A DNA stretch of 64,000 nucleotides from Aquisalinus luteolus (GTDB lineage Bacteria; Pseudomonadota; Alphaproteobacteria; Caulobacterales; Parvularculaceae), in NCBI RefSeq assembly GCF_009712425.2, contig NZ_VCJR02000001.1, positions 620,001-684,000 on the forward strand. Reading direction: 5' to 3'. The position numbers and the translations under genes were made by a program. The notes under the pieces were generated by a model. The model was given only the letters and a program-made list of their open reading frames with translations, had not been told where the DNA came from and searched no databases. This document shows, piece by piece, positions 11,797 through 26,319 of the stretch; position 1 is the first letter of the stretch; each line of letters opens with the position of its first letter.

Positions 11797-12456
11797 TTAA
11801 CCTGCGGCATCCATGTCAGTCTCGGTTTCCTGTTCAGCGGAAACTTCAAGGCCGGTAAAGCTCTGGGCGAAGGCGTCAAGCTCGCTATCGATCAGCAACT
11901 CGTCACCGTCGGCGTCAGCGTCGAGGAATGCGCTGGTGCCTTCCGAAACGAGGATCGTCGCATCAACGGCGCCGTCAACATTCAGTTCGGCAAAGCGGGC
12001 GCTGGCAGCGGCGGCAACCTTGTCTTCGCTCTTCGCGCCTTCATAAAATTCGCTGGTGTCACGCTCCATCATGTCGGCGATGGCGCCAGAAGACGAAATA
12101 TCAACACCCATGCGCGTACCGGCCGAGGCAATCGACATGTCGAGGTTGACGGCATAGTCATCGACCATCGTGTTGGAAACACCACGCGTGAACGCTTCGA
12201 ATTCTGCCTCGTCGAGCAGCTCGTCGGCATTTTCGTCAGCCGCGGCAAACTGGTTCTCCGTCAGCTCGGTCAGTTCGTCCTGAGTCAGGCCGTCGACTTC
12301 AACTTCAGCCGTGGTGTCAGTATCGATCTGTGCCTCGACAGCTTCTGTCTCTGTCGTCAGCTCGACATCGCTTTCTACATCCTGAGCCATGGCAGCGCCG
12401 AGGCTCAAAATAGAGGCCGATGTCAGTGCGGTAGCATATTTCATAAAATTAGTCAT
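11797..12456 (-). CDS. Secreted EF-hand calcium-binding protein
   Basis: 219 residues with a Sec signal peptide (ALTSASILSLGAAMAQ, cleavage after AMA) and a highly acidic mature part. Two EF-hand-like loops are visible: ADENADELLDEAEF (about residues 72-85) and DADADGDELLIDSEL near residue 180. The first departs from the consensus at the glycine position. The middle section (about 95-165) has no recognisable domain. It stands alone, converging on fadB. Likely periplasmic or extracellular calcium binding; role unknown. A second, shorter secreted EF-hand protein is encoded at 46,658-47,035. Confidence 0.75.
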   Translation of the reverse strand: MTNFMKYATALTSASILSLGAAMAQDVESDVELTTETEAVEAQIDTDTTAEVEVDGLTQDELTELTENQFAAADENADELLDEAEFEAFTRGVSNTMVDDYAVNLDMSIASAGTRMGVDISSSGAIADMMERDTSEFYEGAKSEDKVAAAASARFAELNVDGAVDATILVSEGTSAFLDADADGDELLIDSELDAFAQSFTGLEVSAEQETETDMDAAG

Positions 12457-12630
12457 TGGATCATCTCCTGTCTAATCAGAATACAGAGCAAACATACCAA
12501 CACGGCGTTTGTTCCGATCAAAAGGAGATTGGAGCCAACTAAGGCAGGAATGTGCCGATACGGGGGAATTGCTGCCCAATAAGGGGCATTTCAGGGCCAG
12601 TTAAAAAGCGGCAAGAAAGGAACTTTTGCG

Positions 12631-13404
12631 TCAGCCGAGTTTGGAAAAGTCAGGCTTTCGCTTCTGCAGGAAGGCGGATACGGCTTCCTGCATTTCGGCA
12701 GACTTGATCCGCTCGCCGAACTTCATCATTTCCTCGCGCATCAGCGCTTCCATGCCCGGCATGTGGTCGCCCTTCATCAGGCGCTTGGTCTGCCGCACGG
12801 CTTCCGGCGGGCGCTCGGAGATGCGCCTGGCGATGGCGAGCGCCTGGTCGGTGAGGGCGCCGGGGGAGACCACACGGTTTATCAGCCCCAGCTGTTCGGC
12901 CCGTGCCGCCGTCATCCGGTCACCTGCGATGAGGAATTCAGCCGCGCCGCGCCAGCCGATCGCTGCGGGGAAAAGCTGGGAGGATCCGGCCTCCGGCACA
13001 GCGCCGAGATTGACGAACGGTGTCTGGAAGGTTGCGCCCTCCGCAGCGAGAATGAAATCGAAATGCAACAGCAGCGTCACGCCGATCCCGACCGCCGGGC
13101 CATTGACCGCGGCAACAAGCGGCTTGTCGCAGCGGGCCGCCGCCATCATCAACCGGAATGTCGGAAAGGAATCGAGATCGTCCGGTTCCGGCGCGAAGAA
13201 CGATGCCATGTCGTTTCCGGCCGTAAACGTGTCGCCGCGCCCTTCCAGCAGCAGGACGCGCAGGCGGTTGTCCTTCTCGAACCGCTCGAAGGCATCGGCC
13301 AGTGCCCGGTACATGTCCGGCAGGATCGCGTTCTTCTTTTCCGGTCGGTTGAAGGCGATCCGCAGAATGCCGTCCTGGCTCGTGATGTCGATCTGCTCGG
13401 TCAT
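12631..13404 (-). CDS. Enoyl-CoA hydratase/isomerase family protein
   Basis: Crotonase-fold protein of 257 residues from MTEQIDITSQ; AAGGAGA lies at a good distance upstream, so the 24-residue upstream extension is rejected. Seen are FNRPEKKNAI, the oxyanion-hole pair TAGNDMASF and NGPAVGIGVTLLLHFD, and the catalytic region LGAVPEAGSS with one Glu. The first Glu of true hydratases (in the GG.CE.A motif) is replaced here, where VTLL stands, so an isomerase-like or other acyl-CoA activity fits better than a full hydratase. The substrate is unknown. It is monocistronic and lies near fadAB. Confidence 0.88.
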   Translation of the reverse strand: MTEQIDITSQDGILRIAFNRPEKKNAILPDMYRALADAFERFEKDNRLRVLLLEGRGDTFTAGNDMASFFAPEPDDLDSFPTFRLMMAAARCDKPLVAAVNGPAVGIGVTLLLHFDFILAAEGATFQTPFVNLGAVPEAGSSQLFPAAIGWRGAAEFLIAGDRMTAARAEQLGLINRVVSPGALTDQALAIARRISERPPEAVRQTKRLMKGDHMPGMEALMREEMMKFGERIKSAEMQEAVSAFLQKRKPDFSKLG

Positions 13405-13521
13405 GGCGATGTCCCGGTCTCCTTCAGGTCGCGTCTCTCTCATCCCTACTTGACGCAGGCGGGCAGGTGGAGGCAAGGCTTTGTGACAGTTGGCGCGTCA
13501 CGAGACGGGAGAGGGCGGCGC

Positions 13522-14259
13522 ATGAAGATCGCGATCATCGAGACGGGCATTCCGCCTGAGGGCCTCGACAGGGCCCATGGCACTTATCCGGACATGTTCC
13601 GTGCCATGCTCGCCCCGTATTTCCCCGATCTTGAGACGACGGATCATCCGGTTTACGAAGGGGCAGACCTGCCAGCGCTGGATGCTGCAGAAGGCTTCCT
13701 CATCACCGGCTCGCCCGCCGGAGTGTATGAGGATCATGACTGGATCGAACCGCTCGCGACCTTCATTCGGGACACAATCGCGGCGGAAAAGCCCGTCGCG
13801 GGCATCTGCTTCGGTCACCAGATCATGGCCCATGCGCTGGGCGGCACGGTGCGCAAGTCCGACAAGGGCTGGGGCGCAGGCATCCACACCTATGAGATGA
13901 TCGATACGGCCCCGTTCATGACCGGCGAGGCACTGCCGCGAATCGCCTGCGCGGTCTCCCACCAGGACCAGGTGATCGAGGCGCCGGCTGATTCTGTGCG
14001 TCTTGGCGGCTCGCCCTTCTGCCCCAACGGCATTCTTTCTTATGCAGGTGGCAAGGGGCTGTCCTTCCAGATGCATCCTGAATTCACCCATGAGTTTGCG
14101 CTGGCGCTGATGGAGCTACGCTCCGACCGCATCCCCGACGATGTCCGCGCGCTGGCCCGCCCGGGCCTTGCCCACGGCTCGGACCGGGAAACCATCGCCC
14201 GCTGGATCGCCAGCTTTTTTAAACCCACTTACTTGAGCAGGGAGCCTGACCATGGCTGA
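13522..14259 (+). CDS. Class I glutamine amidotransferase-like protein
   Basis: 245 residues, GMP-synthase-like class I GATase fold. The nucleophile elbow is GICFGHQIM with Cys96; the C-terminal His-x-Glu is in FQMHPEFTHEFA. TGSPAGVYEDHDWI matches the family. Such stand-alone proteins hydrolyse gamma-glutamyl bonds or supply ammonia, but the partner is unknown. The start at 13522 was chosen because it begins MKIAIIETG, the first beta strand of the fold; the longer frame is antisense to the hydratase gene. The gene overlaps the GST gene by eight bases, so the two are translationally coupled, which may hint at glutathione-related chemistry. Confidence 0.88.
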   Translation: MKIAIIETGIPPEGLDRAHGTYPDMFRAMLAPYFPDLETTDHPVYEGADLPALDAAEGFLITGSPAGVYEDHDWIEPLATFIRDTIAAEKPVAGICFGHQIMAHALGGTVRKSDKGWGAGIHTYEMIDTAPFMTGEALPRIACAVSHQDQVIEAPADSVRLGGSPFCPNGILSYAGGKGLSFQMHPEFTHEFALALMELRSDRIPDDVRALARPGLAHGSDRETIARWIASFFKPTYLSREPDHG

Positions 14260-14917
14260 CACGGACTTCACCCTCATCATCGGCAACAAGAACCTGTCGT
14301 CCTGGTCGCTGCGGCCATGGGTGCTGATGAAGCACTTTGAGATCCCCTTCGCCGAAAAGATGATTCGCCTCGACCAACCGGACACGCGCGCGACGATCAA
14401 GGATGTCTCGCCCTCCGGCCTCGTACCCTGTCTCATTCATGACGACACCCACATCTGGGATTCCCTCGCCATCGCCGAATATCTGGCTGAGCTTTATCCC
14501 GACCAGCATCTCTGGCCGCGCGGGCAGAAGGCGCGTGCTCTCGCCCGCTGCATGGCATCTGAAATGCATTCCGGCTTTTCAAGCTTGCGCGGCACTTGGC
14601 CGATGGATTTCGTCAAGGAAGGCAAGGGCCTGTGGGGCGGCCCGGGCGTGCGGAAGGACGTTACCCGCATCATCACCCTGTGGGAGGATGCGCTGGAGCG
14701 TTACGGCGCGTCGCTTGGCGGCCCGTTCCTGTTCGGGCGGTTCTCTATCGCGGACGCGATGTATGCACCGGTGGTCTCGCGCTTCCGCACCTATGGACCG
14801 CTCAGGGTGTCAGAGCCGATCGCCGAGTATCTTGAGGCGATGTGGACGCTGCCGGCGATGCAGGAATGGGGCGAGGGCGCCCGGAAGGAAGCCGATGCCG
14901 GCTGGTATCGCGGCTAA
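14252..14917 (+). CDS. Glutathione S-transferase family protein
   Basis: 221 residues. The N-terminal thioredoxin-like domain starts IIGNKNLSSWSLRPWVLMKH, where the SSW(S) stretch holds the catalytic serine of zeta/omega-like GSTs; SGLVPCLIHD supplies the cis-proline and DSLAIAEYLAELYP the glutathione gamma-glutamyl site. The helical C-terminal domain (about 90-215) has GRFSIADAMYAPVVSRFRTY. It overlaps the upstream amidotransferase gene. It ends two bases before the stop of the converging Zur-like gene. Substrate unknown. Confidence 0.92.
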   Translation: MADTDFTLIIGNKNLSSWSLRPWVLMKHFEIPFAEKMIRLDQPDTRATIKDVSPSGLVPCLIHDDTHIWDSLAIAEYLAELYPDQHLWPRGQKARALARCMASEMHSGFSSLRGTWPMDFVKEGKGLWGGPGVRKDVTRIITLWEDALERYGASLGGPFLFGRFSIADAMYAPVVSRFRTYGPLRVSEPIAEYLEAMWTLPAMQEWGEGARKEADAGWYRG

Positions 14918-14919
14918 GA

Positions 14920-15342
14920 TCACGCGCAGCGCGAGCAGCGGCCTTTTATTTCCAGCCGTGCCGCTTCCATGCGAAAGCCTTTTTCGGCGACCACGGCCTT
15001 GATGTTCGATTCGACCGACGGGGTGGCGGAGACGCCAGTGTCGATTTCTTCCACGTTGGAACAGCTCTCGCAGACCAGGAATGACTGGATCTGGTGCGGC
15101 TCGTCGTGATTGCACAGCACATAAGCGTTCAGCGCGTCGAGCTTGTGGACAAGGCCCTTGCCCTCGAGCCCCTCAAGCGCGCGGTAGATCGTCATCGGCG
15201 CGCGTACGCCCTTGGTTTTCAGGATGTCCAGAAGGTCATAGGCCTTGAGCGGCTGCCCGGCCGACTTCAGGGCGCTATAGACAAGGGCCTCATTCTTTGT
15301 GAGCGTGCCCATGAAATCATCGTCGTGGTGATCGTGTGCCAT
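14920..15342 (-). CDS. zur: Fur-family transcriptional regulator, Zur-like
   Basis: 140-residue metalloregulator. A winged helix (about 15-75: ALVYSALKSAGQPLKAYDLL, then the recognition helix RAPMTIYRALEGLEGKGL) precedes a dimerisation domain with the structural zinc site CESCSNVEE and CSRCA at the end. The His-rich N-terminus (AHDHHDDD) and the spacing of the cysteines fit Zur more than Fur. Zinc-loaded Zur represses zinc uptake genes. A tandem repeat upstream (15374-15394) may be its own operator. No znuABC genes are in the window, so the Zur call rests on sequence alone. Confidence 0.8.
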   Translation of the reverse strand: MAHDHHDDDFMGTLTKNEALVYSALKSAGQPLKAYDLLDILKTKGVRAPMTIYRALEGLEGKGLVHKLDALNAYVLCNHDEPHQIQSFLVCESCSNVEEIDTGVSATPSVESNIKAVVAEKGFRMEAARLEIKGRCSRCA

Positions 15343-15373
15343 GTTGTAAACGTTTCCCGCGTTTGTTTCCCCG

Positions 15374-15394
15374 TGTTATATCAATGTTATATCA
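15374..15394 (-). promoter_or_regulatory. Tandem TGTTATATCA repeat, candidate Zur-box
   Basis: TGTTATATCA occurs twice in a row (15374-15383 and 15385-15394), one base apart, about 30 bases upstream of the zur-like start. The AT-rich TGTTATA core resembles Zur-type boxes of Alphaproteobacteria. An autoregulatory site is inferred, not shown. Confidence 0.4.
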
Positions 15395-15521
15395 TGGCTT
15401 GGCGCGCGTTTTAAGAGGGGCAAGGGGCAAAAATCCCGCTTTTGGGGAAAACTTCTTTTCCGTGGCTTTTGGCCGAGCGTCGCCCTGCGACCATTCTGAC
15501 CAGCGATAACATGCATTTTTC

Positions 15522-15548
15522 TTGACGGATTTTGGCATAATCTATAAC
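15522..15548 (+). promoter_or_regulatory. Candidate promoter upstream of glutamate synthase
   Basis: TTGACG (15522-15527) and TATAAC (15543-15548) are 15 bases apart, a little short of ideal. It lies about 215 bases before the gltB start, in the 419-base gap between zur and gltB. Nothing else is recognised in that gap. Confidence 0.4.
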
Positions 15549-15761
15549 TAGAGGCCAACAACGGCGGTATGTTCAGCCTGACTGGCTCCCCTTGCTGGCC
15601 CGAAGGCTATGGCTGCCGTAACGAAAACAGGCGACATCAGTACACCGCAGGATGACCGTCTCACACAAACAGATTGTGTGCTGGCGCGCTTCTGGCGGTT
15701 TTTTGCGCCACAAAAAACATGTAACGACCCGAATGCCGGCCTAACTGGGATAGAGTAATAC

Positions 15762-18700
15762 GTGACTGACAGACGGAATTTTATCGGACTTTATGATGCG
15801 GATGCGGACCATAGCGCCTGTGGCGTCGGCTTCCTGACCCGCAAGGACAGCGTTCAGAGCAATGACGTTCTCGTCAAGGCGCATCAGGCCCTGTGTTCGA
15901 TTCCCCACCGTGGCGGCATGAGCTCCGAAGGCGTCGGTGACGGGGCCGGGGTGTCCATCGACCTGTCGGAGAAATTCTTCCGCAAGATCGCCGGCGAGCC
16001 GGAGATGTGCCTGGGTGATTTTGGCGTCGGCAACTTCTTCATGCCCGATGACCGCACCATGCATGAGGAGGCGGCTGCCCTGATCGACGAGGCGCTTGCT
16101 CGCCAGAATATCGAGGTCATCACCATCCGCGACCTGCCGGTGAATATGGCGGCGTTGCGTCCAGCCGCGCGTCACCACCAGCTCAATATCCGCCAGTGGA
16201 TCTTCCGTTGTCCTGACGCGGCGAAGGACGAGGATGGGCACGCCTTTGACACGCTGATCTATCAGGCGCTGCTGGAGATCGAACAGGTCGCCTATACCGA
16301 TACGCGTTTTGCCGGGCTTTACCCGCTGTCGATGAGCGCCCGCACACAGGTGCTGAAAGGCCGTTTTAACTCGCACGAGATCATTCCGTATTTCGATGAT
16401 CTTGCCGACAGCGATCATGAGATCAACACGATCTTCTTCCATACGCGGTTTTCGACCAACACCGCGCCGCACCCCATCATGGCCCAACCCTTCCGGCTGA
16501 TGGCCCATAATGGCGAGCTGAACACCGACAAGAAGAACCGCTTGTCTGAGGATGCCATCGCCCGCATGAAGGGCCGCCGGATCATCTCGCCGAAAGGCCA
16601 GTCGGACTCTGCCCGGCTCGACCAGACACTCTATCGCCGCACGATCGAGGACGGTCTCGACCTCGTCACCGCCGTCGTCGCGATGATGCCGCCGGCCTGG
16701 GAAAACGATTCGCGCTATTCGCCGGAAGTGCGGGCGATGCTGGAGTATTTCTCCCTCTATGAGGAGAAGAATGACGGCCCCGCCGCGCTTATCTTCGGCA
16801 ATGGCAAGGTTGTCGGGGCGCGTCTCGACCGTCTTGGCCTGCGTCCGCTGCGCTCGGTCGAGACCGAAGAATATCTCTGTGTCACCTCAGAGGCAGGCCA
16901 GATCGATTTCCCGCCCAAGGATGTCATCCGCCGCGGCCGCATCGAATCCGGCGGCATGCTTTGGTACAGTCACGGTGAGAAAAAAGCCTACAACTCGCTG
17001 GAAACGCTGGAAATGCTGGCGAGCCGCGAGAACTATGCAGAGCTGCTGGGCAAGAGCCGTACGAACCTCATCGACCTGCCGCCGGCACCCGATGAGGCCT
17101 ATACGGACGATCCGGACTTCACCATCGCCCAGCGCTTCGTCTCCTGCGCCCTGAACCAGGAGAGCTTCAAGTTCATGCTCGACCCGATGCTGCAATCGGG
17201 CTCGGAAAAAGTCTCCGCCATGGGCTATGGCGCGGCGATCAACGCGCTCTCCGATCAGGAAGGCGGGGTTGCGAAATATATCTCCCAGCGTTTTGCGCAG
17301 GTGACGAACCCGCCGCTCGACTCCATGCGCGAGGCCGACGGCATGACCCTGCGCGTCGCACTGGGGCCAAAGCCGTCTTTCAACGTCTTTGACACCAAGC
17401 AGATAGTCGTCGAAACGCCGATCCTGAAAGCGGGCGACCTTGCCAAGATCCGCATGCAGAAAGATGTGAAGGTTGAGGAAATCGAGACTTGCTATGAGCC
17501 GGTCTATGGCGACACGACGAAGAACGCCGCTGCCATTCTCGAGGCCATGGAAAGGGTCTTCGACCAGGTCGAGGAGAAAGTCCGCGCCGGGGCGGGTATC
17601 ATCGTGCTCAGCGATCTCGGCATGAATGCGTCGAAGGCGCCCCTGCCGGGGCTTCTGGCTGTCGCCGGGGCGAACCAGCGTTTGATCCAGAAGGGCTTGC
17701 GCTTCTCTGCTTCCATCGTGCTGGAATCCGGCCAGTTCGCGTCGTCCCACCACGTCGCGGTGGCCCTCGGTTTCGGCGCGTCGGCGATCTGCCCGGTCTC
17801 CGTCTTCTGGCGGGCACAGCAGAAATTCCCCGATGATGTCGAGGGCGCGATCAACCGTTTCGTCAAGGCCGCCAACAAGGCGCTGATGAAGACGATGGGC
17901 AAGGTCGGTCTGTGTACGGCGGAAAGCTATATCGGCGGGGAATTCTTCGAGCCGAACTTCCTCGATACCAGCGATCCGGTGCTGAAGGAATTCTTCCCGA
18001 ACATGGTCTCGCCTGTGGGCGGGGTCGGGTTCGAGACGATCGTGCGCTCGTCTGCCGACTGGCATGAACGGGCCCGCCGCGTGCGCAATGAGGACGAGAT
18101 CCCGCTCCTCGGCCTGTTCAAGGAACGCGCTGAGGGAGCAGGACACTCATACGGCACGACGGCTGTGCGCGGCTTCGTCGAGATGACCGAAGAAGAAATT
18201 GCCATCCCGGCTATCCGTGAGCCAAAGGATGGCGAGCTGGAGCCAGCCAATGACGAGGATGCAGACTCCATGCGGCTGCTTACGCTGCAGGGTCTGAACG
18301 ATTCCTTCGGCATGGACGCTGACACCTACAAGTTTGCCGGCTTCGGTCGCCGCACGCCGGAAGAGATCGACTCCCAGGAAATCACGCCGCGCTATCGCGA
18401 GTTCATCCGCATCCTGACAGAAGAGCGCAACAAGCGCCCGGCTGCGCTGCGCGACGTTCTCGGCTTCCCGGCAGACATGCGCTTCTGCACAACGGAAGAA
18501 GAGTTCGAGGACGAGCTCTCCAAGCACGATGTCTACGGCAATGAAAGCTTCCTCGTACGCGGCCTCGACTGCCGCCCGGAAAATGACGGCATCTTCGAGC
18601 TGAAACTGACCGGCCAGCTGGCGACCGACTATGCCCGCCTGACAGTGCTCGCCCACGCGATCCGCAACCGCTTCGGCGATGATATCGTCTATGCCAAGCA

Positions 18701-21287
18701 TGTCGACGATTATGTCGAGCTGCAGGCCGAAGGCGCGGCGCTCTATTACTTCACCCATCTCTATTCCGCGCCCGGCACCGTCCCGTTGGACGAGGTGCAG
18801 CCTGCGTCAGAAATCACCAAGACACTCGCCTCTGGCGCGATGAGCCACGGTGCGCTCGTGGCCACGGCCCACGAGGCTGTCGCCCACGGCACAAACATCG
18901 CCGGCGGGTTGTCGAACTCGGGCGAGGGCGGTGAACACTTCTCCCGCTACGGAACGATCCGCGCCAGCGCGATCAAGCAGCTTGCCTCTGGCCGCTTCGG
19001 CGTCTGGGCCGGTTACCTTGCCGACCCGAACCTGAAAGAGCTGGAAATCAAGATCGCCCAGGGGGCCAAGCCGGGCGAGGGCGGCCAGCTGCCTGCCCAG
19101 AAAGTGACCGTCGAGATCGCGGCTGCCCGTGGCGGCACACCGGGCGTCGAGCTCGTCTCGCCGCCGCCGCACCACGACACTTATTCCATCGAGGACCTCG
19201 CCCAGCTGATCCACGATGCCAAGGCCGCCCGCGTGCGCGTCATCGTCAAGCTTGTCTCGTCAGAGGGTATTGGCACCATCGCCGTCGGCGTCGCCAAGGC
19301 AGGTGCTGACGTCATCAACGTCGCCGGCAATACCGGCGGCACGGGCGCTGCCGCCGTGACATCGCTGAAGAACACGGGTCGCGCGGCGGAGATCGGCATT
19401 GCTGAAGTCCATCAGGCGCTATGCGTCAACGGCATCCGCCAGAAGGTGATCCTGCGTGCTTCCGGCGCCCACCAGACCGGCTCGGATGTCGTCAAGTCAT
19501 CACTGCTTGGTGCAGACTCGTTCGAGTTCGGCACGACGGCGCTGATGATGCTGAAATGCGTCATGGCCAAAAATTGCAACGTCAAATGCCCGGCGGGCCT
19601 GACCACGAACCCGGAAGTGTTCGATGGCGACCCGCGTGCGCTGGCGCAGTACCTCATCAACATCGCCCACGAGGTGCGTGAGCATCTCGGCCGCCTCGGC
19701 CTGCGCTCGCTGCGCGAATCCCGTGGCCGCTCCGACCTCCTGCATCTGCTCGATCATCCGTCCACGGTCGGCCAGCTGGACCTGAAGGCCATGCTGCATC
19801 CAGTCGAGGAAGTGCGCGTCGAAAAGCCGGTCTATCTGGAGGCCAATTTCGATGTCGACGACATGATGATCGAACGGATCGAGCAGGCCCTGTTCAAGGA
19901 TGGAGAGGAGCACATCACGCTGAAGGGGCCGGAATTCGTCCTGTCCAACCCGAACAAGACGGTCGGCGGGCAGATGTCTATCGATCTCGAACGCATCCTG
20001 CAGCACCAGATGGACCAGGAAACTGCCGACAGGCTGCTAGCGGTGAAAACCGACGACCGGGGCCGTCGCTTCCTCGAGCCGGATACGATCCGTATCGAGA
20101 CGACCGGGTCTGCCGGCCAGTCCTATGGCGCTTTCGTCAATGACGGTGTCCTGATGATCCATACCGGCACGGCCAATGACGGCGTCGGCAAGGGCCTTTC
20201 CGGCGGGACGCTCGCCATGTCCTCGCCCGGCGGCGGCAATTGGGAAGAGCAGGGCGGCAACGTCCTCATCGGTAACTTCGCCCTGTTCGGCGCAACCGGC
20301 GGCAAGCTGTTCGTGAACGGAGAGGCGGGCGACCGCTTTGCCGTGCGCAACTCCGGCGCTGTTGCGGTCGTCGAAGGCGTCGGCGATTTCGCCTGCGAAT
20401 ACATGACCAATGGCGCTGTCATAAACCTCAGCCATTTCGGCAAGGGCATGTGCAACGGCATGTCCGGCGGTTTCGCCTTCCAGTATGACCCAGAAGGCCT
20501 GCTGGAACACAGCTACAGCGCCGACTCCGTCTTGCTGCTGAACTTGGGCGATGCGACGGAAGAAGCCGCCATCATGCGCGAGAGCGTCGTCATGCTGCTT
20601 GAAGAGCATGTGAAGCTGACGAACTCGTCCCGCGCTAAGCGTATCCTGAAGAACTGGGACACAGAGGCGCGCAATTTCCGCTACCTTCTGCCGCGCGCCC
20701 TTGCCGGCAGCCAGAACACCTATGACATCCTGCGCCACCACTCGCGCAAGCAGATGATCGAGGAAATGGCAACGGCGCTGTGCAAATACCAGCTGCGGAA
20801 GTTCAAGATCGCCTGGCGCGACGGCCAGAACGTCATGTCCGGTTTCACGCCTGCCTTCGGCTCTGCCGAGGCGAACGAGACCTATGTGCTGCTCAATTCG
20901 TATACGGTCATGCACATGGCGACGCGTCTTGCCATGACCCGCCTGCCGGGCCAGCCAGCGCCGCAGGACCCGGAAGTGCAGAAGGCGATGAAGAAGCTGA
21001 TCCTGACGGAAGACTTCGCGCTGATGCAACAGCTGATGAAATATGCCCGCTCGGCGCTCGGCAATTATTCCGACGAACAGCTGGGTGTGCTCGTCTCCGA
21101 CAAGCGCCTGAAGGATTACAAGGAAGCCCTCAGCCGGCGGAACGTCTTGTCCATGTATGCCCACGGCACCTATGGCTGGATCATGCTGAAGGACCGGGAG
21201 AACCGCGAGCGCCTGTCGCCGCTGCCTGGCTTTGAGGAATTGTTTGCGCGCGAGGCGAGTGTCGATATCGCCCGGGCGGCGAGTTAG
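15762..21287 (+). CDS. gltB: Glutamate synthase large (alpha) subunit, extended variant
   Basis: Makes two glutamates from glutamine and 2-oxoglutarate in ammonia assimilation. 1841 residues against about 1500 in usual GltB. GTG start. An N-terminal class II amidotransferase domain (about 20-430) begins at Cys20 in HSACGVGFL, implying removal of a 19-residue propeptide; RFSTNTAP and MAHNGELNT follow. The FMN/2-oxoglutarate domain (about 1020-1390) shows SGAMSHGAL, GGLSNSGEGGEH, KPGEGGQLPAQKV, SPPPHHDTYSIEDL and GGTGAA. The Fe-S cysteines are C1266, C1272 and C1276 (C-x5-C-x3-C), one residue shorter than the usual C-x5-C-x4-C. The C-terminal beta-helix (GTANDGVGKGLSGGTLA) is followed by an extra helical tail of about 200 residues. 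The next gene is a diflavin reductase, not gltD. Confidence 0.93.
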   Translation: MTDRRNFIGLYDADADHSACGVGFLTRKDSVQSNDVLVKAHQALCSIPHRGGMSSEGVGDGAGVSIDLSEKFFRKIAGEPEMCLGDFGVGNFFMPDDRTMHEEAAALIDEALARQNIEVITIRDLPVNMAALRPAARHHQLNIRQWIFRCPDAAKDEDGHAFDTLIYQALLEIEQVAYTDTRFAGLYPLSMSARTQVLKGRFNSHEIIPYFDDLADSDHEINTIFFHTRFSTNTAPHPIMAQPFRLMAHNGELNTDKKNRLSEDAIARMKGRRIISPKGQSDSARLDQTLYRRTIEDGLDLVTAVVAMMPPAWENDSRYSPEVRAMLEYFSLYEEKNDGPAALIFGNGKVVGARLDRLGLRPLRSVETEEYLCVTSEAGQIDFPPKDVIRRGRIESGGMLWYSHGEKKAYNSLETLEMLASRENYAELLGKSRTNLIDLPPAPDEAYTDDPDFTIAQRFVSCALNQESFKFMLDPMLQSGSEKVSAMGYGAAINALSDQEGGVAKYISQRFAQVTNPPLDSMREADGMTLRVALGPKPSFNVFDTKQIVVETPILKAGDLAKIRMQKDVKVEEIETCYEPVYGDTTKNAAAILEAMERVFDQVEEKVRAGAGIIVLSDLGMNASKAPLPGLLAVAGANQRLIQKGLRFSASIVLESGQFASSHHVAVALGFGASAICPVSVFWRAQQKFPDDVEGAINRFVKAANKALMKTMGKVGLCTAESYIGGEFFEPNFLDTSDPVLKEFFPNMVSPVGGVGFETIVRSSADWHERARRVRNEDEIPLLGLFKERAEGAGHSYGTTAVRGFVEMTEEEIAIPAIREPKDGELEPANDEDADSMRLLTLQGLNDSFGMDADTYKFAGFGRRTPEEIDSQEITPRYREFIRILTEERNKRPAALRDVLGFPADMRFCTTEEEFEDELSKHDVYGNESFLVRGLDCRPENDGIFELKLTGQLATDYARLTVLAHAIRNRFGDDIVYAKHVDDYVELQAEGAALYYFTHLYSAPGTVPLDEVQPASEITKTLASGAMSHGALVATAHEAVAHGTNIAGGLSNSGEGGEHFSRYGTIRASAIKQLASGRFGVWAGYLADPNLKELEIKIAQGAKPGEGGQLPAQKVTVEIAAARGGTPGVELVSPPPHHDTYSIEDLAQLIHDAKAARVRVIVKLVSSEGIGTIAVGVAKAGADVINVAGNTGGTGAAAVTSLKNTGRAAEIGIAEVHQALCVNGIRQKVILRASGAHQTGSDVVKSSLLGADSFEFGTTALMMLKCVMAKNCNVKCPAGLTTNPEVFDGDPRALAQYLINIAHEVREHLGRLGLRSLRESRGRSDLLHLLDHPSTVGQLDLKAMLHPVEEVRVEKPVYLEANFDVDDMMIERIEQALFKDGEEHITLKGPEFVLSNPNKTVGGQMSIDLERILQHQMDQETADRLLAVKTDDRGRRFLEPDTIRIETTGSAGQSYGAFVNDGVLMIHTGTANDGVGKGLSGGTLAMSSPGGGNWEEQGGNVLIGNFALFGATGGKLFVNGEAGDRFAVRNSGAVAVVEGVGDFACEYMTNGAVINLSHFGKGMCNGMSGGFAFQYDPEGLLEHSYSADSVLLLNLGDATEEAAIMRESVVMLLEEHVKLTNSSRAKRILKNWDTEARNFRYLLPRALAGSQNTYDILRHHSRKQMIEEMATALCKYQLRKFKIAWRDGQNVMSGFTPAFGSAEANETYVLLNSYTVMHMATRLAMTRLPGQPAPQDPEVQKAMKKLILTEDFALMQQLMKYARSALGNYSDEQLGVLVSDKRLKDYKEALSRRNVLSMYAHGTYGWIMLKDRENRERLSPLPGFEELFAREASVDIARAAS

Positions 21288-21297
21288 GGAGCCGGTC

Positions 21298-23085
21298 ATG
21301 GGTGAACAGAACCACAAGCTTTTCGCCAACACGCTGTTCTTCCCGGAGGAGGCACCGTTCTCCCCGGACCAGAAGGCATGGCTGAACGGCTATTTCGCAG
21401 GCCTTAATTCGCGCCTTGCGCAGATCGAGGACGCAGCACCGACACAGGCGCTGAAGCCTGTCCACATCCTCTATGGCAGTCAGACCGGCAATGCCGAAAG
21501 TGTCGCCGAGGAAGTCGCCGAGAACGCCAGCCAGTTCGGCCTCGCGCCGCACGTCATGGCGCTTGATGATATCGAAATCGCCGACCTGAAGAAGATGGAA
21601 CGGGTACTGATCTGCGTCTCCACCTATGGCGAAGGCGAGATGCCCGATAACGCCCAGCTGTTCTGGGATGCGATCCTGTCCCAGACTGCGCCGCGTCTGG
21701 AAAAGACCCATTATGCCGTGCTCGCACTTGGCGATACCAGCTATGACGAGTTCTGCCAGGCGGGCAAGCTGATCGACCTGCGTCTTGAACAGCTCGGCGC
21801 CTATCGCATCGCCGACCGTGTCGACTGCGATGTCGATTACGAGGACAAGGCTGCCGAGTGGCTCGGCAGTGCCCTGCCGGAAATCTCCAAATTCGGCAAG
21901 GATGCGCCAACCGCCGGTGTTCCGGAAGCCTCCAAGGACGTGCCGGTCGGAGAGGCGAAATCAAAGCGCGCCAAGTGGAACCGGAAAAATCCGTACACAT
22001 CAGTACTGGCCACCAACCGACTCCTGTCGGCAGAGGGTTCGGCCAAGGAAATCCGGCACTTCGAATTTGCCCTCGGCGACAGCGAGATCGAGTATGAGGC
22101 GGGCGACGCCCTCGGCGTCATGCCGGTGAACGATCCGGAACTGGTCGAGGCGACGATCAAGCGGCTGGGCTACAACCCCGACGCCGATGCAGGCGATGGC
22201 AAGTCGCTGCGCGAGGCGCTGACAACGGATTATGAAATCTCCATGCCGTCGCGCGACTATCTCACCGCCGTCGCGGCACAGGCCGAAGATAGCCGCCTGT
22301 CGCACATCGTCGACAATAACGACAAGGAAGCGATCGACGATTATCTGTGGTCGAAGGACCAGCTCGACCTGCTCAATCTGTATCCGGTCGTGACCTGGGA
22401 CCTTGAGCAATATCTGGACTTGCTGAAGCCCCTGCAACACCGGGCCTATTCGATCTCGTCCTCGCCCAAGGCCGACCCGGATCATATCCACCTGACGGTC
22501 GCCTCTGTGCGCTATGACAGCCATGGCCGCCAGCATGGCGGTGTCTGCTCGACCTTCATGGCCGACCGCGTCGGCGATCAAGGGACGGCGGGTATCTTCC
22601 TGTCGCCGAACAAGGCTTTCCGCCTGCCGTCCGATCTGGACGCGCCAGTCATCATGGTCGGCCCCGGCACCGGCATCGCGCCGTTCCGTGCCTTCCTGCA
22701 GGACCGTGAAGCCGCAGGCGCGAAAGGCAAGAACTGGCTGTTCTTCGGCGACCAGAAGCGCAAGTCCGACTTCATCTACGAACAGGAAATGCTCGACTGG
22801 CACGACAAGGGCGTGCTGACCAAGCTCGATCTCGCCTTCTCCCGCGACCAGGAAGAGAAGATCTACGTCCAGCAGCGCATGAAGGAGAACGGCGCAGAGC
22901 TGTTCAAATGGCTGGAAGAGGGCGCCTATTTCTATGTCTGCGGTGACGCTACCCGCATGGCGAAAGATGTCGATGCCGCGCTCCTGAAGATCATCGAGAA
23001 GGAAGCGGGCATCAATGACGATGCCGCTTGGGACTATGTCGGCAAGATGAAGAAGGACAAGCGCTACCTGCGTGACGTCTACTGA
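21298..23085 (+). CDS. CysJ-like diflavin reductase (NADPH:flavoprotein), possible GltB partner
   Basis: 595-residue NADPH-dependent FAD/FMN reductase of the sulfite-reductase-alpha/P450-reductase type. The flavodoxin domain (about 58-200) shows ILYGSQTGNAESVAEEVAE, STYGEGEMPDNA and LALGDTSYDEFCQAG. A connecting domain follows, then the FAD motif RAYSISSSP, GGVCSTF, the NADPH motifs VGPGTGIAPFRAFLQ and FFGDQKRKSDFIYE, YVCGDATRMAKDV and the terminal KDKRYLRDVY. The start MGEQNHK lies 10 bases after gltB, on the same strand, with GGGAG upstream. No sulfite reductase hemoprotein gene (cysI) is near. The layout suggests it feeds electrons to the glutamate synthase in place of GltD, though a misplaced CysJ is the alternative. 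Confidence 0.88.
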   Translation: MGEQNHKLFANTLFFPEEAPFSPDQKAWLNGYFAGLNSRLAQIEDAAPTQALKPVHILYGSQTGNAESVAEEVAENASQFGLAPHVMALDDIEIADLKKMERVLICVSTYGEGEMPDNAQLFWDAILSQTAPRLEKTHYAVLALGDTSYDEFCQAGKLIDLRLEQLGAYRIADRVDCDVDYEDKAAEWLGSALPEISKFGKDAPTAGVPEASKDVPVGEAKSKRAKWNRKNPYTSVLATNRLLSAEGSAKEIRHFEFALGDSEIEYEAGDALGVMPVNDPELVEATIKRLGYNPDADAGDGKSLREALTTDYEISMPSRDYLTAVAAQAEDSRLSHIVDNNDKEAIDDYLWSKDQLDLLNLYPVVTWDLEQYLDLLKPLQHRAYSISSSPKADPDHIHLTVASVRYDSHGRQHGGVCSTFMADRVGDQGTAGIFLSPNKAFRLPSDLDAPVIMVGPGTGIAPFRAFLQDREAAGAKGKNWLFFGDQKRKSDFIYEQEMLDWHDKGVLTKLDLAFSRDQEEKIYVQQRMKENGAELFKWLEEGAYFYVCGDATRMAKDVDAALLKIIEKEAGINDDAAWDYVGKMKKDKRYLRDVY

Positions 23086-23102
23086 TCTTTTTCTTTCGCG
23101 GT

Positions 23103-23233
23103 ATTTCAGGGGACTGTTGCTGTCAAGGCCGCGCCGGAGGCGCGCCGCGAAGCGGTTGCAGCCTTGACAGCAACAGTCCCCTGAAATCATCATCAGCCAA
23201 GGCCTGTAAGGCATAAAGTGCCTTACAGGCCTT
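23103..23233. repeat. Bipartite palindromic element (two strong hairpins)
   Basis: A perfect 27-base inverted repeat (23103-23129 with 23161-23187, core GACTGTTGCTGTCAAGGC) and, 11 bases on, a perfect 15-base inverted repeat (23199-23213 with 23219-23233, core GCCTGTAAGGCA). The second hairpin recurs at 56.9 and 57.6 kb. It lies between two genes on the same strand and may also end the gltB operon. There is no long T tract. Confidence 0.85.
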
Positions 23234-23352
23234 GCTTGCCAATTAAAGAAGGTGTGGCTCTGTCCCATGGAGCCGCGGCTTACCTTTTTACGGCTGCTTT
23301 CCTCCCGCGCTTTTCATTTTGCCAGCGAGCCATATCGCGCTAGACCGCTGCC

Positions 23353-24033
23353 ATGTCAGATACATCCAAACCGCTTCTCATTCTCGACATGGTCTCCGAC
23401 CCTGTCTGCCCGTGGTGCTATGTCGGCAAGCGCTCGCTCGATCGCGCGCTGATGGCGCTTTCATTTTCCAATGACCTGATGGTCCGTTACCGGCCCTATC
23501 AGTTGGCGCCCGATGCGCCTAAAGAGGGGCGGAACCGCAAGGAATACCTCGCGTCGAAATTCTCCGCCGAACAGCTCGACCAGATGAACGGCGCCCTGCT
23601 CGAGGCCGCCCGTGTGGCGGGCCTTGACCTCGACCCGTCGCTACCGGAAATCGCGCCGAACACGCTCGACGCCCACCGGGTCATCCGCTGGGCCCATGAG
23701 GACAATCTCCAGCGCGAGGTGGTCGAGGCGCTGTTCGATGCCTATTGGAAGCACGGGCTCGATCTCGGCAGCCATGATGTGCTCGCCACGGTCGCAGCTG
23801 AGGCCGGCATGGAAAAGGCGGATGTGCTCGCCCGTCTTGGCTCGGTCGAGGATGTAAACGATGTGAAGGAAGAGGCGCAGGCCTTCCGCGCCGGGGGCGT
23901 CAATGGTGTGCCCACCTTCATCATCAACGAGCAGGCCGGCTTTGCCGGGGCCCTGCCACCGGACCAGCTCTTGGAAACTATCCGCCAGGTCGCGGCGGAG
24001 ACGGAGCCCCCGGAATTTCAGGATGAGGGTTAA
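23353..24033 (+). CDS. DsbA-family (FrnE-like) thiol oxidoreductase
   Basis: 226 residues without a signal peptide, so cytoplasmic. Thioredoxin fold with an inserted helical domain, of the 2-hydroxychromene-2-carboxylate isomerase/FrnE type. The active site is DPVCPWCYVGKRSL (Cys19, Cys22); the cis-proline loop is GVNGVPTFIIN near the end. FrnE proteins act as disulfide oxidoreductases or isomerases and are linked to oxidative stress. It stands alone after the palindromic element. The substrate is unknown. Confidence 0.9.
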   Translation: MSDTSKPLLILDMVSDPVCPWCYVGKRSLDRALMALSFSNDLMVRYRPYQLAPDAPKEGRNRKEYLASKFSAEQLDQMNGALLEAARVAGLDLDPSLPEIAPNTLDAHRVIRWAHEDNLQREVVEALFDAYWKHGLDLGSHDVLATVAAEAGMEKADVLARLGSVEDVNDVKEEAQAFRAGGVNGVPTFIINEQAGFAGALPPDQLLETIRQVAAETEPPEFQDEG

Positions 24034-24114
24034 CCCTCATCATCCGGTACAGACGGCACGAGGCTTGCAGCGCTGCACTGACCATGGGATTTTTCCTCGA
24101 TCGGAGACGCGGGC

Positions 24115-26319
24115 ATGACACGCAACTGGCTGGCTGGACTTTTCGGGATCTGCCTGTTCCTGACAGGGCTTCTCGCCGTGCCTGCTCTCGCCCAGGATCT
24201 CTCCGGTCTCACCCCTGAACAGCGCCGCGCCGTCGAGCGCATGCAGGCGCAGGGCGTCGAGCTGCAACAGGTCGACGGCGTCCAGCCCTTGCGGCCCCAA
24301 CCGGTTGAGGCCGTACCCTCCGCCGGTCGCATCCTGACGACACCGGATTTCCTCATGCCCCATCGGGGAGGGGAGATCACCGGTCTCAATCTCGACCGCA
24401 CGGCCCGTAATGCCGACCTTCCTTACCTGACTTTCGGGCAGGCCTTCACGGCAGGCGATTTCGCGCGGGGCGACCATCTGGCCATCCGCGTCGGCAACCA
24501 GCTCTTCCCGGTGCAGGCGGATGTGAAGGCGACCCATGGTGACGGCTCGGTCCGTCACGCCGTCCTCACTGCCGATCTCACCGGCCTCGACCGTGGCCGC
24601 CACAAGGCGATGCTGGTGCGCGTGCCAGCCGGTCCAAGCGCACCGCATAATACCATGGACCGCAGCCAGATCACCGTCAGCATTGTCGGTCGCCGGGCCG
24701 ACCGCAGCGAGTTCGCCGGGCAGGTCGATCTCCTTTCCCTGTCCGCCCAGCGCGGCACGCCATGGCTCGACGGGCCTTTCGCGCGGGAGCGCAGTTACGA
24801 GAAGGATATCGGACCACTTCTCACCGTCCGTGCTGATCATCGTGTCTATGCCGGTGGCGCAGCGCGCACGCGGCTGAGTTTCGAGAACCACAAGACCTTT
24901 GCCCCCGGCATGCGTGACATGACGTATACGGTCATTGTCCATGATGGCGACGAGGTCATCGCGCAATATGACGATATCGAGCACTATCGCGGGTCGAACT
25001 GGTCGACGGTGGTCGAGACGACCGCGCGCTCCGGCTGGCGGGTGGAGCAGGACCCGGCCTATCTCATCGCGGCGGGCGCGGTCATGCCTTTCGATCTCGG
25101 CTATGGCGTTGCCGAGACCAAGATAGAAGCAAACCTCGCCGCCCTCGCGCAGGAAAAGGGCGTGCTCACGCCCGGCTTACTGACACCGTATTTTCCCTCG
25201 ACCGGCGGGCGCGCCGATATCGGCCCGCTGCCGGCATGGGACGTGATGTGGCTGAAGAGCCAGAGCGCCAATGCCGAACGGCTGATTCTGGCGATGGCAA
25301 ACCGGGCAGGGGCGGTACCCTGGCATTACGAGGAAGACACGACAGGTTTGCCCGTGCGGGTCGAGGGCCGCCCATGGTTCTGGGCCGAGGATCGGGGCAC
25401 GGAGGAATGGCGCGGCAATGACCGGATCCCGCCGGCCTATTTCATGGGCTCGGATGGCGGTTGGTCCCTCGACACCGCGCACAAGCCGCTGATGACCTAC
25501 ACGGCGTATCTTTCTACGGGCGACGCTTACTTCGCCCGCGAGCTGTCGCACGAGGCGGCATGGGTCATCGCCGCGATCTGGCCTGACCTGCGCAATGTCA
25601 ACAATCCCGGTGACCCGCTGGTGGGCGAGGAGCTGCAATTGCGTGGCCGCGCCTGGGCCCTGCGCGATGTATCCGCCGCCGCGTTTCTGTTGCCTGACAC
25701 CGATCCGCTGAAGGGCTATTTCCGCACGGCCCGCGATATTTCGCTCGCCCACGTGAAGCGCAAATATATCGACCACGGCTTCCTCGATGCCGCCGGGGAA
25801 ACCGAAGGCTGGTTCGAGGATATGTCCTATTCTATCGCCGGGGCCGTGCCGCCATGGCAGAACGATTTCATGGTCATGGTACTTGCTCATGAAGCGCTGC
25901 GCGGCTCGCGCGATGCGGCCGCCCTCGTTCAGTGGGCGGAGAATTATCAGGTCGGGCGTTTCCTCGCGACCGGTTCCTCGCCATCGGTAGGGGCAGCATA
26001 CGCCCACATGCTGAACGAGCCGGGCACGCAGGAGCCTGTGGGGTCATGGGCGCGCGCGATGGCGCTTACAAACACCGACCCTGCCTACCTGAACAATTTC
26101 CCCGATGATGGCACTGGTTACGTGGTTAGTGCGTATGCGGCGCTTGCCATGACTCATGCCGTCACCGGCTCCCGCGCCAGCCTCGACGCGGCTGAGGCGC
26201 TGGCCGTCACGCAAGCCGACAGCCGCCTGTTCGACCCGTCGAATGCCGCCGGCATCTATACCCAGCCGCAATTCCTGATTACTTATCCGGATACGGAAAA
26301 CAGGGTTAACTCCCGGTAA
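24115..26319 (+). CDS. Large secreted protein, RIFT-barrel / exo-rhamnogalacturonan-lyase-like
   Basis: 734 residues with a clear Sec signal peptide (LFGICLFLTGLLAVPALAQ, cleavage after ALA). About residues 75-230 look like the RIFT-barrel domain of PcRGLX/YetA-type lyases (TFGQAFTAGDFARGDHLAIR, and THGDGSVRHAVLTADL). The rest is rich in aromatic, helical segments like an alpha/alpha toroid: MTYTAYLSTGDAYFARELSH, GRAWALRDVSAAAFLLPDTD, DGTGYVVSAYAALAMTHAVT. A polysaccharide-degrading or binding role in the periplasm or outside is plausible, but no catalytic residues could be assigned and no carbohydrate-use genes lie nearby. Single gene, preceded by a 20-residue Gln/Pro-rich linker after the signal. 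Confidence 0.55.
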   Translation: MTRNWLAGLFGICLFLTGLLAVPALAQDLSGLTPEQRRAVERMQAQGVELQQVDGVQPLRPQPVEAVPSAGRILTTPDFLMPHRGGEITGLNLDRTARNADLPYLTFGQAFTAGDFARGDHLAIRVGNQLFPVQADVKATHGDGSVRHAVLTADLTGLDRGRHKAMLVRVPAGPSAPHNTMDRSQITVSIVGRRADRSEFAGQVDLLSLSAQRGTPWLDGPFARERSYEKDIGPLLTVRADHRVYAGGAARTRLSFENHKTFAPGMRDMTYTVIVHDGDEVIAQYDDIEHYRGSNWSTVVETTARSGWRVEQDPAYLIAAGAVMPFDLGYGVAETKIEANLAALAQEKGVLTPGLLTPYFPSTGGRADIGPLPAWDVMWLKSQSANAERLILAMANRAGAVPWHYEEDTTGLPVRVEGRPWFWAEDRGTEEWRGNDRIPPAYFMGSDGGWSLDTAHKPLMTYTAYLSTGDAYFARELSHEAAWVIAAIWPDLRNVNNPGDPLVGEELQLRGRAWALRDVSAAAFLLPDTDPLKGYFRTARDISLAHVKRKYIDHGFLDAAGETEGWFEDMSYSIAGAVPPWQNDFMVMVLAHEALRGSRDAAALVQWAENYQVGRFLATGSSPSVGAAYAHMLNEPGTQEPVGSWARAMALTNTDPAYLNNFPDDGTGYVVSAYAALAMTHAVTGSRASLDAAEALAVTQADSRLFDPSNAAGIYTQPQFLITYPDTENRVNSR

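Follow-up and report, generated by a model that had tools for sequence, protein, structure and literature searches.

A glutamate synthase gene paired with a CysJ-like diflavin reductase gene: a probable third class of NADPH-dependent glutamate synthase

The described electron donors of glutamate synthase (GOGAT) are GltD or ferredoxin. The GltBD enzymes (Azospirillum, E. coli, Bacillus) are encoded by two-gene units, in which a large subunit with four domains, a nucleophile cysteine, a flavin mononucleotide (FMN) barrel and three cluster cysteines is accompanied by an NAD(P)H reductase; the large subunit of the ferredoxin-dependent enzymes (plants, cyanobacteria) functions without GltD. The present analysis concerns a gene pair of Aquisalinus luteolus, carried by a stretch of 64 kb (hereafter the window; C1:620001-684000 of a genome of 3.68 Mb in nine contigs, whose completeness is given as 100%), in which a long form of the large subunit, GltB, is followed by an NADPH diflavin reductase. 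The pair has all the features of GltBD listed above but associates GltB with a diflavin reductase devoid of iron-sulfur (Fe-S) domain instead of GltD, and its GltB differs by a 98-residue insert, a helical C-terminal extension of about 177 residues and an Fe-S loop that is one residue shorter. It shares with the ferredoxin-dependent enzymes a large subunit without GltD, but has a dedicated neighbouring reductase gene and no counterpart of the segment that the solved ferredoxin enzyme (1llw) has inserted. The reductase has the domain order and the FMN, flavin adenine dinucleotide (FAD) and NADPH sites of CysJ, but its partner gene is gltB instead of cysI and it misses the cut-offs of the cysJ models. 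Overall, this pair very probably represents a third class of NADPH-dependent glutamate synthase, in which a diflavin reductase takes the place of GltD.

The first open reading frame (ORF) of the pair matches GATase_2, Glu_syn_central, Glu_synthase and GXGXG and the second one Flavodoxin_1, FAD_binding_1 and NAD_binding_1, each above its Pfam cut-off (Table 1). These ORFs and domains bear out an earlier note on this DNA, which had placed a diflavin reductase 10 bases after gltB. The same note had found neither gltD nor cysI nearby, and tblastn searches of the whole window with E. coli GltD and two sulfite/nitrite reductases indeed gave no match.

A scan with three aligned reductases retrieved at least 558 relatives, of which the best 80 (52-60% identity) were taken as named loci. 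A long GltB lies directly upstream of the reductase in all 80, which belong to Rhizobiales, Rhodobacterales, Pseudovibrio, Cohaesibacter, Pantoea, Erwinia, Porticoccaceae, Methylobacillus, Rhodococcus, mycobacteria, Leucobacter and one planctomycete metagenome-assembled genome (MAG). Neither GltD nor, with two queries, any sulfite/nitrite reductase was detected by tblastn in their flanks (up to 8 kb per side, less at contig ends). Searching from the synthase to the reductase gave the same picture, the reductase being next to a long GltB in nine of nine further genomes (three of them with GltB regions identical to those of the named loci L069, L074 and L081). Long GltBs were found at E <= 1e-250 in three of 385 genomes of the class and six of 398 of the phylum (A. 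luteolus included), and the reductase follows them in all seven other genomes. Among 41 relatives (A. luteolus included; E <= 1e-60), three encode a long GltB, 29 a short one and nine none; a match to Fer4_20, the N-terminal domain of GltD, lies within 4 kb of 29 of the 29 short GltBs, and the genomes with a long GltB have none at all (0/3). The long GltBs of the relatives G121 and G124 are 97% and 66% identical to that of the window, and their adjoining reductases 95% and 65%.

The pair is also carried by plasmids. In a plasmid collection, the reductase matched 76 records and the C-terminal region of the long GltB nine. The nine reductases with at least 52% identity are exactly those of these nine records, which come from five genera (two from Shinella, one from Neorhizobium, one from Sinorhizobium, four from Ketogulonicigenium vulgare and one from Tsukamurella); among the reductase matches listed, 21 others (<= 48% identity) are in records without this GltB region, and none of the remaining 46 records belongs to the nine. 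Four of the nine are of conjugative type. In three plasmid regions the two genes are adjacent and annotated as "glutamate synthase-related protein" and "sulfite reductase subunit alpha" or a similar name. The adjacency of gltB and the reductase gene is therefore far beyond chance: conserved across phyla (80/80 named loci, 9/9 further genomes and 9/9 plasmid records), conservation in alphaproteobacterial genomes being a check proposed in the earlier note, it defines a conserved, mobile two-gene unit.

No Fer4_20 match was found across the near-complete genome of A. luteolus (the same profile search gave matches in nine of 14 control genomes), which therefore holds no GltD of known kind; a gltD elsewhere in the genome, linked to another gltB, was one of the findings that, for the earlier note, would have overturned its reading, which thus stands. 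The Glu_synthase family has three matches in this genome (the long GltB, a 495-aa protein with the FMN domain only and an IMP dehydrogenase), so that the long GltB is its sole full-length GltB. The reductase is a single match at E <= 1e-60. Among the named genomes, Fer4_20 matches were found in 36 of 50 and 16 of 30; the absence of Fer4_20, which bears on the absence of gltD that the earlier note had suggested looking for, thus extends to 28 of the 80, the rest keeping Fer4_20. When the 50 were scanned for GltB, all encoded the long form, 33 together with a short one and 17 alone, and all 14 Fer4_20-free genomes of the 50 fall within these 17 (Fisher p = 7e-10, although the genomes are not independent). 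The 33 genomes with both systems provide a same-genome control: GltD was found at 32 of the 33 classical loci and at none of the 33 pair loci, and the reductase at all 33 pair loci and at none of the classical gltB loci.

The pair can occupy the very site of gltBD. The gene order of E. coli K-12 is arcB-yhcC-gltB-gltD, other genes, then sspB-sspA-rpsI-rplM-zapE, and 15 of 15 Erwiniaceae-type loci display arcB-[pair]-sspB-sspA-rpsI-rplM, i.e. the pair in the interval of gltBD, with no match to yhcC at these loci. In 13 of these 15 genomes Fer4_20 gave no match; the match of G581 and the better one of G555 fall in reading frames of some 650 aa, which exceeds the length of a GltD, and the second match of G555 is in a 1101-aa frame. 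In six Porticoccaceae/Cellvibrionales loci, the pair is flanked by genes that we read as aroB and hemE, an interval that we take to be the gltBD site in Pseudomonas. P. ananatis LMG 2665 carries the pair and has no Fer4_20 match, and its long GltB is about 68% identical to that of Agrobacterium. According to PMC12364357 (2025), a gltB knockout of P. ananatis is a glutamate auxotroph (with reference to Hara 2012), a close homologue of E. coli GOGAT could not be found and PAJ_RS19710 is 64% identical to A. tumefaciens GOGAT; we infer that PAJ_RS19710 is the long GltB. Two loci from records labelled as Enterobacter group (L074 and L107) fall inside Pantoea in the GltB tree and are perhaps from misnamed genomes.

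The synthase itself belongs, according to alignments and a tree, to a distinct long class, and the two-gene unit is widespread, two points absent from the earlier note. The alignment comprised 76 rows from 83 sources, after removal of L040, L082 and L111 (no GltB start) and of L037, L048, L080 and L108 (short GltB reads). In the latter four, the long GltB is in separate pieces, possibly owing to frameshifts or assembly errors. Cys20, which is presumably the glutaminase nucleophile after propeptide removal, and the loop C-x5-C-x3-C with its three invariant cluster cysteines are present in all 76 aligned sequences; the pattern C-x5-C-x4-C was found in five solved sequences, in E. coli, in the congener G064 and in seven of nine short GltB loci. 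Besides the main insert and the C-terminal extension, two smaller stretches (residues 818-874 and 1415-1432) are unmatched in E. coli and two congener GltBs. The insert was first placed at about residues 805-1000 before alignment with these three GltBs narrowed the main one to 902-999, and its predicted structure is of high confidence between about residues 907 and 1000. Models of residues 796-1012 and 1600-1841 (mean predicted local distance difference test of 77.5 and 88.9) had no fold match in the PDB at E <= 0.001; the best one for the former, an arginine repressor (E 0.065), is not significant and was rejected. The protein has the features expected of a glutamate synthase large subunit (four domains, N-terminal cysteine, cluster cysteines), but scores 1037 bits in two stretches against a cut-off of 1047 for the NCBIfam glutamate synthase model NF008730 (1005.7 for K. 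vulgare and 986.4 for Tsukamurella); since all four Pfam domains pass, we read this model as fitted to the short form. In a FastTree phylogeny of the FMN-GXGXG region, the 83 long rows are all on one side of a branch with support 100, and the Actinomycetota rows and one Planctomycetota row are placed among Pseudomonadota.

Regarding the reductase, 82 sequences were aligned after removal of one row of three residues. The motifs G-x-Q-T-G, R-x-Y-S and G-P-G-T-G are invariant, as are S515, R516, K521, Y523 and Q525, which we take to be the NADPH-phosphate site. The flavodoxin-loop motif E-M-P-D-N, which differs from that of the single CysJ aligned, is also found in 82 of 82, an invariance partly due to selection because the scan itself used this motif as one of its two patterns.

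The conserved pairing and the exclusion of GltD strongly suggest that electrons pass from the reductase to the synthase, and support the route proposed in the earlier note (NADPH to FAD to FMN to synthase), the transfer itself being deduced from sequence. The pair would form one enzyme system converting glutamine, 2-oxoglutarate and NADPH into two glutamates, in which GltD, with its FAD and two 4Fe-4S clusters, would be replaced by a reductase of the CysJ/cytochrome P450 reductase type. NADPH would reduce FAD, which would then reduce the FMN of the flavodoxin domain, and this FMN would hand electrons one at a time to the synthase's own Fe-S cluster and FMN. The large subunit would carry out glutaminase activity, ammonia channelling and imino-group reduction like an ordinary GltB. 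The two proteins are thus expected to be in physical contact, and the class-specific insert and the C-terminal helical domain would probably provide a docking site or shape the oligomer.

Several points weigh against this reading. Some Fer4_20-free genomes are drafts or MAGs, and the absence of GltD in G121 and G124 is weaker evidence because these genomes are 92% and 78% complete. One of the 33 classical control loci gave no GltD match, and 33 of the 50 genomes keep a short GltB as well, so the pair is not necessarily their main enzyme. The GltB tree includes only 12 short rows, 11 of them from the order of the window, and long branches meet in it. Pairwise distances of GltB and reductase correlate (r = 0.94, 75 loci), but this correlation is confounded by shared ancestry. 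Classical gltBD lies at a different site in G064 and G074, and hence the site replacement observed in Erwiniaceae is not seen in the genus of the window. Finally, the statement on the P. ananatis knockout is second-hand (Hara 2012 through PMC12364357), the identity of PAJ_RS19710 is indirect, and the accessible part of PMC12364357 contains neither "flavoprotein" nor "gltD" and does not mention the reductase.

Among other explanations, the long GltB could be ferredoxin- or flavodoxin-dependent, the reductase merely supplying the reduced carrier and the link between the two being indirect. Diflavin reductases can reduce carrier proteins. A ferredoxin-dependent GOGAT exists, as described in the accessible part of PMC8097209. 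However, the reductase has its own flavodoxin domain, and the FMN domain of the synthase has, near residue 1062 of this GltB, no equivalent of the insertion of 1llw, presumably the ferredoxin loop, which makes this explanation improbable; ferredoxin genes beside the pair were not searched systematically, ORFs shorter than 90 aa being excluded from flank clustering.

Even less probable is that the reductase is a CysJ serving a sulfite reductase encoded elsewhere, its adjacency to gltB being incidental. Its closest solved structures are CysJ, and it passes NF004859, "sulfite reductase subunit alpha" (477 over 432), so that another electron acceptor is possible, a further point against its role as donor to the synthase. 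In a sample of the order, it matched two of 120 genomes, A. luteolus and G099, whose reductase is 41% identical and, as expected of a true CysJ, immediately adjacent to a sulfite/nitrite reductase. A. luteolus also encodes one nitrite/sulfite reductase (at C2:402 kb, with a PAPS reductase gene downstream and a gene read as cysG upstream). However, the cysJ models are missed (636.6 of 668.15 for TIGR01931 and 513.2 of 838 for PRK10953), the E-M-P-D-N loop is unlike that of the one aligned CysJ, though it served as scan pattern, tblastn with two queries detected no sulfite/nitrite reductase in the flanks of the 80 loci (up to 8 kb per side, less at contig ends), and 80 pairings of 80 over three phyla are not attainable by chance. 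Moreover, the hemoprotein of A. luteolus has its top scores with ferredoxin-type models, yet below every cut-off. This hemoprotein has matches in 32 of the 41 relatives; the congeners G064 and G114 keep orthologues (76-77% identical) without any diflavin reductase match at E <= 1e-60, and a third congener, G074, has neither. A cysI partner, the other finding that the earlier note held to be decisive against its reading, is thus not supported by the sole candidate.

A product other than glutamate, arising from another amidotransfer and reduction in specialised metabolism, would fit the class-specific regions, the patchy distribution, the plasmid carriage and the short GltB present in 33 of 50 genomes, but is hardly credible given that the long GltB is the only full-length GltB of A. 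luteolus and of 17 of the 50 named genomes, that the pair occupies the gltBD interval in Erwiniaceae and that the P. ananatis knockout is reported to need glutamate (PMC12364357, accessible part).

The third class of glutamate synthase could also be an iron-sparing one, a view that is partly supported by its neighbourhood. In 19 of the 80 loci (Rhodobacterales, some Rhizobiales, Rhodococcus and mycobacteria), the gene immediately after the pair is HemS/ChuX-like; six of ten scanned proteins, K. vulgare and Tsukamurella being among the ten, are above the Pfam cut-off, and this gene is possibly a third component or an iron-linked companion. Downstream of the pair, K. vulgare has a gene weakly resembling HemS, then an AraC gene and genes for a TonB siderophore receptor, Fhu-type transport and a siderophore-interacting protein; plasmid pYP1 of this species (L125), typed as conjugative, carries the pair and then the siderophore receptor and Fhu-type genes. 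In the 33 genomes with both systems, siderophore/TonB-uptake genes are near nine pair loci versus no classical locus (p = 0.002), and HemS-like genes near 12 versus none, with three of the four queries drawn from the 80 loci. A divergent Fur-family gene adjoins the pair in the three genomes of the family that carry it (the window, G121 and G124). Such surroundings are consistent with iron sparing, but over half of the loci lack them altogether. Upstream regions (80 in total, from 77 of the named loci, the window, G121 and G124) were scanned with consensus strings for Fur, Irr and RirA; on average, Fur and Irr boxes were no better than in shuffles and RirA boxes only slightly above them. In 14 actinobacterial regions, IdeR-like boxes were also sought. 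Of five mycobacterial loci, three have such boxes upstream of the pair (in L092 and L093, 0 of 300 single-base shuffles were as good, in L101 3 of 300). The boxes are less marked in Rhodococcus (two loci, 4 and 8 of 300) and were equalled by 14 to 300 of 300 shuffles in the other nine regions. The full proposal, an iron-sparing pyridine-nucleotide-dependent GOGAT of a third class that acts beside gltBD as an iron-limitation isozyme, is partly plasmid-borne and is the sole GOGAT of lineages such as Pantoea, Porticoccaceae and A. luteolus, is tentative and may well fail in part.

Other features were noticed around the pair. In G121, a near-identical congener, a TonB-dependent receptor gene (L030:3637-5922) lies upstream of the Fur-like gene; none is there in the window. 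Four Rhizobiales loci (L036, L037, L038 and L046) have in common a GTCAG-N5-NTGAC-like element just upstream of gltB, and a conserved GC-rich element resembling CAGGTCNCCTGCGGCTCCGCC is located about 100 bases upstream of gltB in Agrobacterium and Rhizobium (Table 1). No Rfam family was matched next to the pair, either in positions 12000-26000 of the window or in eight loci, and none for the CAGGTCNCCTGCGGCTCCGCC-like element in L052 or L064.

Table 1. Features of the gene pair in the window and at other loci
Feature	Position	Strand	Basis or remark
Long-class GltB, glutamate synthase large subunit, 1841 aa, GTG start	15762..21287	+	ORF and domain search
Cys20, expected glutaminase nucleophile	15819..15821	+	C in 76/76 aligned long GltBs
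Main insert, residues 902-999, before FMN domain	18465..18758	+	no counterpart in three short GltBs compared
Fe-S cluster loop C-x5-C-x3-C, residues 1266-1276	19557..19589	+	one residue shorter than in solved glutamate synthases
All-helical C-terminal extension, about residues 1665-1841	20754..21284	+	nearly all without counterpart in three short GltBs
Intergenic gap gltB/reductase, 10 bases; AGGGAG shortly before reductase ATG	21288..21297	+	
NADPH diflavin reductase, CysJ-like, 595 aa, ATG start	21298..23085	+	flavodoxin/FMN, FAD and NADPH domains
Fur-family gene, divergent from gltB	14920..15342	-	domain search; possible regulator
HemS/ChuX-like genes, examples	L106:9751-10704, L073:9793-10746, L101:9721-10554		
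Loci with CAGGTCNCCTGCGGCTCCGCC-like element	L052, L059, L060, L063, L064, L077, L083, L090		

None of the papers listed in our literature searches concerns this gene pair, although most subscription papers were beyond reach and an earlier description is possible; "diflavin" is absent from the accessible part of PMC8097209, and gltB and GOGAT are absent from PMC9231021. Glutamate synthase is central to ammonium assimilation, and a flavin-only NADPH route, if true, would be a third electron path to this enzyme. Flavins would then stand in for the two 4Fe-4S clusters of GltD, leaving about 3 iron atoms per unit versus 11 (if the cluster of the synthase is 3Fe-4S). Such a route would also correct public annotations that name the reductase gene a sulfite reductase subunit, and would explain how bacteria without GltD, such as Pantoea ananatis, a species used for amino acid production, synthesize glutamate.

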